The notes beneath the pieces are model-generated. The model did not search any database. It saw only the letters and a program-made list of their open reading frames with translations, and had not been told where the DNA came from. Source: Bacteroidales bacterium (GTDB lineage: Bacteria; Bacteroidota; Bacteroidia; Bacteroidales; FEN-979). From it: a DNA stretch of 64,000 bases. The number at the start of each line of letters is the position of its first letter. Within the stretch, counting starts at the first letter, position 1. The DNA lies in the NCBI GenBank assembly GCA_030681475.1, contig JAUXWT010000049.1, forward strand, positions 71,991 to 135,990, read 5' to 3'. Both the position numbers and the translations under genes were made by a program. This document shows positions 36,823 through 49,704 of the stretch, in pieces.

Positions 36823-37258
36823 ACAACAGTTCGTTCTGTCGCTGGTAAAGACACCACTTGTGATGTCTTCCGGAGGAAAGTCAGGACAACACAGGGCGCC
36901 ATGCTTCCTAACGGGAAGGATCCCGGGATAAAAAGGCCCGGGATACAGATAGTGCCACAGAAAATAACTACCAGGGGTTGAGATGCACATCAGTGCGTCT
37001 CAGCAACCTGTGGTAAAGACGCACTGCGGTGCGTCTCCACAGGAGTCCCCCGGGAAAAGGTGAAAACGCGGTGTAAGAGACCACGGTCCCGGTGGGCAAC
37101 CATCGGGAGGGGTAAACCTCATGGGTTGAAAGACCAAGTATACCGGCTGATAAGGGTTGCCCGCCCGATGCCGGAGGGTAGGTCGCTAAAGCCTTCCGGT
37201 GACGGCAGGCTCAGATAAATGACAGAATTAAACAAAATCCTGCTTACAGAACTGTTGT
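36823..37258 (+). ncRNA. rnpB: RNase P RNA, bacterial type A
   Basis: Catalytic RNA that matures tRNA 5' ends. The universal GAGGAAAGTC (CR I) begins near 36872 and is followed by ACACAGGGCGCC; GTGCCACAGAAAATAACTACC-type sequence (near 36951-36972) is CR II, GTGTAAGAGACCACG follows P12, and AGATAAATGACAG (near 37213) is CR V. The ends pair as P1: ACAACAGTTC (36823-36832) with GAACTGTTGT (37249-37258), followed by a T tract that terminates transcription. Length is about 436 bases. The P12 region (about 36973-37058) is enlarged and holds two palindromes. The gene lies between divergent MATE and wecB. Confidence 0.95.
36980..37043 (+). repeat. tandem palindromes inserted in RNase P RNA P12
   Basis: Palindrome 1 (36980-37001) pairs GAGATGCAC with GTGCGTCTC over a four-base loop. 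Palindrome 2 (37007-37043) pairs CCTGTGG with CCACAGG around an inner AGACGCAC-TGCG-GTGCGTCT hairpin. The arms GTGCGTCTC / GACGCAC are shared by both, so they look like two copies of one element. They fall in the variable P12 helix. Confidence 0.75.
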
Positions 37259-37270
37259 CTTTTTTTTTTG
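37259..37270 (+). terminator. rnpB terminator T tract
   Basis: A run of ten or more T follows the 3' strand of the P1 helix (37249-37258), so P1 itself acts as terminator hairpin. Partial readthrough could feed wecB, which starts 12 bases later. Confidence 0.65.
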
Positions 37271-48964: not shown

Positions 48965-49704
48965 AATATCTCGGTTATACTTTCATATTATTCATCTGCT
49001 GCCTTGGCATCATGCTGGGAGGCTGTGGCAAAGACGGGGGAAAATGTGTCTCTTCCACAGGAAGAATACTCCTGCAAGACCGTAATATTTCAGATTTTGA
49101 CAGTATCCGTGTGCTTGATCATGTAAACGTAATCCTGAACCAGGGTTCTGAAAACAAGGTGATGGTCGAAGCGGGAGAATTCATCATCGGTGGGATTGTG
49201 ACCGAACTGGCAGGAAGGGAACTTGTATTACGGAACACCAATCGTTGTAACTGGCTTAGAAGTTATTCCAAACCGATCAACGTGTATGTCACCGTTAAAA
49301 ACCTGCTGAAGATCCATTATGATTCCTCCGGGGATATTACGTGCACCGATACATTACGGTCGGGGTATCTTAAGATTGACATGTGGGGAGGGTGTGGCGC
49401 CATCGACCTGAAAATCAATGTGAGCGATGGATTTTTTATTCAGCACATTGGAACGGCAACCCTGATATTAACGGGTATTTGTAAAATAAGCAATGTTTTT
49501 GCCGGCGATTATGGGCTTCTCCAGCTCACCGGGCTGAAAGCCGGATATACCTTTGTGACCAACAGCGGTACGAACAACTGTTATGTTTATGCCAACCGTG
49601 AGTTGGACGCCACGATCACCTCGATCGGCAACATATACTATTCCGGGGATCCGAAAGAGATTAAAGCAACAATCACCGGTTCCGGCAAGTTACTTCCCTA
49701 CTGA
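48961..49704 (+). CDS. head-GIN domain lipoprotein (DUF2807)
   Basis: A 247-residue lipoprotein: the signal ends in IMLGGCGKDG (lipobox Cys near residue 22). Most of the chain is a beta-helix-like DUF2807 domain (ISDFDSIRVLDHVNVILNQG, VEAGEFIIGGIVTEL, LDATITSIGNIYYSGDP, ATITGSGKL), common in Bacteroidota and called a putative auto-transporter adhesin head domain. Function is unknown. It overlaps the PagL-like gene by four bases, so the two are translated together and perhaps act in the same compartment. Seven to eight cysteines in the mature part (for example GGKC, NRCNW, ITCTD, GGCG, GICK) are more than usual. Confidence 0.85.
   Translation: MKYLGYTFILFICCLGIMLGGCGKDGGKCVSSTGRILLQDRNISDFDSIRVLDHVNVILNQGSENKVMVEAGEFIIGGIVTELAGRELVLRNTNRCNWLRSYSKPINVYVTVKNLLKIHYDSSGDITCTDTLRSGYLKIDMWGGCGAIDLKINVSDGFFIQHIGTATLILTGICKISNVFAGDYGLLQLTGLKAGYTFVTNSGTNNCYVYANRELDATITSIGNIYYSGDPKEIKATITGSGKLLPY

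Follow-up and report, generated by a model that had tools for sequence, protein, structure and literature searches.

Copies of a dispersed, tagged palindromic repeat in helices P3 and P12 of a Bacteroidales RNase P RNA gene

The window, a 64-kb stretch of Bacteroidales DNA, was searched with cmscan, and the only RNA family matched was the type A RNA of bacterial RNase P, encoded by rnpB. The match scored 236 bits against a gathering score of 100 for RF00010 and covered the complete model, and the core of the RNA is intact. The gene is single copy (one match) in the genome from which the window comes (G000; assembly of 4.24 Mb in 111 contigs). It and the features within it are as follows.

36823-37262, plus strand: rnpB, bacterial RNase P RNA type A (RF00010, 236 bits, full model 1-367)
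36845-36869, plus strand: decayed REP-like copy in P3, GTAAAGACACCACTTGTGATGTCTT, matching 12/15 positions of the tagged consensus
36971-37053, plus strand: enlarged P12 with 64 inserted nucleotides, its outer stem opening into two hairpins in the predicted fold
36977-37001, plus strand: REP-like copy 1 in P12, GTTGAGATGCACATCAGTGCGTCTC, 13/15 of the tagged consensus (hairpin 36977-37004)
37013-37037, plus strand: REP-like copy 2 in P12, GTAAAGACGCACTGCGGTGCGTCTC, 15/15 of the tagged consensus (hairpin 37007-37043)

The cmscan alignment located the 64 inserted nucleotides in P12. In the fold, 36971-36976 pair with 37048-37053 to form the outer stem, and the two hairpins that it encloses share the arm GTGCGTCTC (36993-37001 and 37029-37037); the palindrome AGACGCAC-TGCG-GTGCGTCT is found exactly at 37017-37036, inside the second hairpin. 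The folding energy of 36965-37060 was -52.3 kcal/mol, compared with -28.2 ± 3.4 for shuffled sequences (z of -7.1; reached by 0 of 200 shuffles). The alignment and the fold agree with the first-pass annotation, which had described a P12 of two hairpins with a common arm and was right in both coordinates and anatomy. The pattern AGACGCAN{2,14}TGCGTCT had one match in the window, the 37017-37036 palindrome, and none in 100 shuffles.

The palindrome was also proposed to be an interspersed element, and a search of the genome bore this out. AGACGCN{4,24}GCGTCT was present at 13 places in the G000 assembly, compared with 2 for the reversed control, and the tagged form GTARAGACGN{8,12}CGTCTC was present at 11 places, among them rnpB 37013-37037, with a control count of 0; the palindrome is thus not confined to rnpB. 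A looser pattern, AGACGN{8,22}CGTCT, was dropped in favor of the tagged one because its control matches outnumbered the signal. The G000 copies have in common a longer unit, GTAAAGACGCAC-loop-GTGCGTCTC, flanked on one side by a GTAA tag, and the rnpB copy carries both the arms and the unpaired GTAA tag of the others. The foot tetranucleotide is GTAA in 10 of the 11 copies, a departure from the canonical GT[AG]G, and GTAG in 1; copies in relatives carry GTAG, often also CTAC. Palindromes of 20 to 40 bp in many dispersed copies are typical of REPs, and the likeness to extragenic palindromes noted at first pass is correct, the fit being to the double-foot REPs of TnpAREP subclass 2.4 (PMC6006769). 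Copy number is modest, reaching ~28 copies in relatives. By a simple ORF count, the G000 copies lie mostly between long ORFs; some overlap an ORF of ≥80 codons, one of which has 289 codons (L043). Close pairs occur on contigs C21 (23487/23516), C65 (141856/141924), and C70 (652/681). Other repeats were seen in the same genome: three TATTTCGTCCCGTACGGGACGAAATA palindromes just downstream of an IS200-like transposase gene (L033, 2017-2612, contig C44) constitute a second REP family, and tandem GGGCTCACTATTGTGAGCCC units, each followed by TTACGG, adjoin an AGACG copy (L045, upstream of position 1500; contig C60 near 14293) and possibly represent a third repeat family.

Copy 1 in P12 and the P3 copy are degenerate. 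The 12/15 score of P3 was reached by 0 of 300 shuffles of P3; since such scores also arise by chance elsewhere in the 64-kb window, it is the location of the P3 copy, together with better copies at the same site in relatives (15/15 in G002 and 14/15 in G018), that supports the assignment. The first-pass annotation had recognized both P12 palindromes and overlooked this one. Its reading of P12 as two copies of an interspersed element stands with a caveat. The P12 regions of G003 and G018 are alike (CCGGG-AAAGATGCACC...CCGG) and probably descend from one older copy, to which the first P12 hairpin of the window (AGATGCAC) may also belong, so that the pair need not reflect two recent insertions. 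Elsewhere in the window, 49028-49052 (GCAAAGACGGGGGAAAATGTGTCTC) is a weak 13/15 match to the tagged consensus that lacks a proper inner stem.

Of 61 genomes, 59 had an rnpB gene, and P12 was compared across the 18 other genomes of the genus, one of which (G001) carries two rnpB versions. The P12 stretch ranged from 21 to 107 nt. Five genomes (G005, G006, G010, G016, and G017) have a plain, short P12 hairpin of 21 to 27 nt, and the first three of these have a very short P3 as well. In other relatives, P12 or P3 contains copies that belong to the subfamily of the genome concerned, so the comparison of P12 suggested at first pass favors the repeat over a normal P12. P12 scored 15/15 in G013, G014, and G015, 14/15 in G002, and 13/15 in G003; full-consensus copies in rnpB number five (P12 of G000, G013, G014, and G015; P3 of G002). 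The longest P12, 107 nt in G014 (L063/L107), has a long stem that encloses a full REP and, beside it, a second hairpin with half a REP (ATGCGTC). Among the relatives, which are different species, no filled site had an otherwise identical empty counterpart, and insertion is therefore read from comparison. Among the rnpB genes scored, none outside the genus reached 11/15, and a sample of 395 Bacteroidota genomes held no true P12 copy outside the genus, which makes the phenomenon look lineage limited within the phylum. The sole match of that scan (G404) was rejected as it is not a palindrome.

Could P3 and P12 simply be long, fast-evolving helices that resemble the palindrome by chance, with no insertion? 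Neither helix is conserved in sequence in RNase P RNA (PMC4264200), P3 covaries as an ordinary helix would, and the congeners G007, G008, and G012 have a long P12 free of the motif. Ordinary variation would, however, be unrelated to the repeats of the genome, and this is not what was found: in G013, G014, and G015, the 25-mer of the rnpB copy has exact duplicates at other places in the genome. The 87.7 Mb searched held between ~143 tagged copies (distinct places) and 193 (an upper bound that counts every match on either strand), from which 0.014 to 0.018 copies were expected in 19 rnpB genes. The five observed, each a 15/15 match with the tag in a different genome, correspond to a P value of ~1e-11, or ~6e-7 when copies are confined to an assumed non-coding share of 12%. 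Chance resemblance was rejected for the full copies on these grounds; it may apply to the decayed P3 copy of the window, and overall we regard it as very improbable. tmRNA is encoded by a structured RNA gene of a length similar to that of rnpB. The tmRNA genes of 18 genus genomes (373 to 374 nt in 17 of them and 360 nt in G012) contained no copy, indicating that not every structured RNA gene takes up the repeat.

Mapped onto a tree of rpoB from 17 species, presence of the P12 copy required at least five state changes. A single ancestral P12 REP might account for them if it was inherited and then diverged, was gene converted from dispersed copies, or was lost: the G003 and G018 P12 regions are alike, 32-nt P3 hairpins are common to a clade, and a fewest-changes count cannot separate gains from losses. 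Such a history does not readily explain why the copies sit at differing depths in P12 within unrelated flanking stems, why their internal sequences differ and match the subfamily of each host, why G000 has two copies, or why G001 scores best in the opposite orientation. We consider it unlikely and favor insertion over gene conversion as the probable route, judging from sequence comparison. Because the tree is weakly resolved within a clade of eight and gains and losses are inseparable, we claim recurrence and offer no event number; the possible common copy of G003 and G018 adds to the uncertainty of that number.

The later life of a copy was followed in P3. Five P3 hairpins (G001, G001b, G002, G017, and G018) have the same 34-column layout; 92% of cells were paired, and 8 of 15 pairs had changed on both sides, a level reached by 0 of 500 shuffles and by no slid control. 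Within this set, the G002 hairpin is still a full REP and that of G018 nearly so. Covariation of this strength suggests that the REP-derived helix has probably been kept as structure, and these five sequences, though few, are most simply read as a REP copy having turned into P3 in the clade and kept its paired form since. The two rnpB versions of G001 (contigs C151 and C106; L021 and L054) lie between the same flanking genes in one assembly and probably represent two related populations in the bin. Their cores are 95 to 96% identical, compared with 56% for P3 and 62% for P12, and both hairpins are intact.

Retention of P3 with compensatory change might also mean that RNase P gains a new function from the repeats, such as a protein-binding arm or a role in regulation. 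The great variation of P3 and P12 between species, down to the very short helices of G005, G006, and G010, argues against a shared function, and we rate this most improbable. Stems of 8 to 15 pairs are plausible RNase substrates. Either RNase III or RNase E might excise the hairpins and leave a fragmented RNase P RNA, by analogy with the intervening sequences of 23S rRNA; we view this as improbable, given that in the fold the pairing runs continuously into the host helix.

Subclass 2.4 REPs are described as a double foot around a long hairpin in Bacteroidetes and Cyanobacteria, and the associated transposase gene as carrying in-frame repeats between its HUH and Y motifs, with NHIH, WQ, and YIxNNP signatures (PMC6006769). 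The genus genomes had 0 to 10 Y1_Tnp matches each; a protein search recovered repeat-interrupted, subclass 2.4-like genes in 12 of 19 genomes, including 3 of the 5 without a Y1_Tnp match. Y1_Tnp genes with in-frame palindromes have NHIH...WQ and a YIxNNP-like motif. Genes combining NH[IFV]H, WQ, YIxNNP, and in-frame REPs were found in G000 (L036/L218) and in relatives (L219, L223, L224, L225, and L232), the G000 gene having YIIDNP in place of YIxNNP. This G000 gene (L036, 1438-1956; contig C29 near 43990) is a RAYT-like Y1_Tnp gene in which three near-identical in-frame palindromes, GTAGAGACAAGGC (GTAGAGACAAGGCATTGCCTTGTCTCTAC-type), follow the MPNHIHG (HUH) motif; their subfamily differs from that of the rnpB repeat. 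In-frame AGACG-family palindromes do occur in such genes of G015, G008, G004, G013, and G014. Three stronger Y1_Tnp genes of G000 (L033 to L035) were rejected as a source, the palindromes near them not being of the AGACG family. The rnpB repeat may have been mobilized by a TnpAREP/RAYT transposase of subclass 2.4.

The reading that we prefer, with a probability of roughly 85%, is that tagged REPs (GTARAGACG-n-CGTCTC, of the subclass 2.4 double-foot kind) entered P3 and P12 of RNase P RNA, where they have been tolerated and kept paired. Tagged copies would enter rnpB at these terminal hairpins. As a REP folds as its own hairpin, a copy landing at the tip of a helix that points outward would add a side branch or extension, leave the catalytic core intact, and so be tolerated; the inserted copies would then stay base paired and change slowly by compensatory mutation. 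The repeats are presumably near neutral for RNase P activity. Insertions into flexible linkers or loops of the transposase may be harmless (PMC6006769), and a REP in P12 would be the RNA counterpart. That one repeat family occupies the same two outer helices in several relatives indicates that such repeats can join an essential ribozyme.

A similar case came from outside the phylum. In the cyanobacterium Cyanosarcina radialis, GTAGAGACGTAAAATTTTACGTCTCTAC forms the P12 of a good rnpB (254.6 bits), and no second copy of the palindrome was present within the 8 kb of sequence examined. The underlying contig scan used a loose pattern that gave at least 120 stretches, two of which had an rnpB context among the matches listed (L082 and L107, the latter with the same P12 as G014). 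Tentatively, and at somewhat less than even odds, P3 and P12 may repeatedly receive RAYT-linked REPs in two or more phyla, the repeats becoming lasting ribozyme helices that turn over with the current REP subfamily of the host; mobile DNA would then have supplied part of an essential RNA enzyme.

RNase P RNA, an ancient and essential molecule, serves as a model for the growth of structured RNAs through added peripheral helices, and in the present case the origin of such a helix can be identified. A plain hairpin, a full-consensus copy of the repeat of the host, two adjacent copies, and a decayed, covarying copy exist side by side, which allows helix gain by a catalytic RNA to be tested in nature. 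The results also suggest that, for lineages of this kind, rnpB phylogenies be built without P3 and P12.

REPs, their tags, and their presence within genes are already known (PMC3733652, PMC6006769). The GTAG-tagged REPs surveyed by Di Nocera et al. (2013, PMC3733652) are likewise dispersed, tagged palindromes of 20 to 40 bp, single or paired and at times inside genes; that survey reported no GTAG repeats in Bacteroidetes, and RNase P and rnpB are absent from its text. The literature searched gave no account of P3 and P12 recurrently capturing REPs in RNase P RNA, which is weak evidence of novelty as most subscription papers fell outside it. On REPs, MITEs, or palindromes within this RNA, the search returned one title (Vioque 1997). 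Rickettsia palindromic elements resemble our case as palindromic repeats inserted within genes and differ in sequence and in having protein genes as hosts, according to the part of PMC3733652 available. The closest relatives, the double-foot REPs of PMC6006769, share the GT[AG]G-type foot with its complement around a long hairpin, the phyla, the in-frame transposase repeats, and the NHIH, WQ, and YIxNNP motifs. The window copy, GTAA...CTCCAC, departs from their perfect double foot and lies in a catalytic RNA gene, a host that the accessible part of that paper does not mention. In the RNase P RNA gene itself, the nearest parallel is the STRR repeats in rnpB of heterocyst-forming cyanobacteria (Vioque 1997, by its title as cited in PMC2858038): both are genomic repeat families within rnpB, the cyanobacterial one, to judge from that title, of short tandem repeats and the Bacteroidales one a tagged palindrome.
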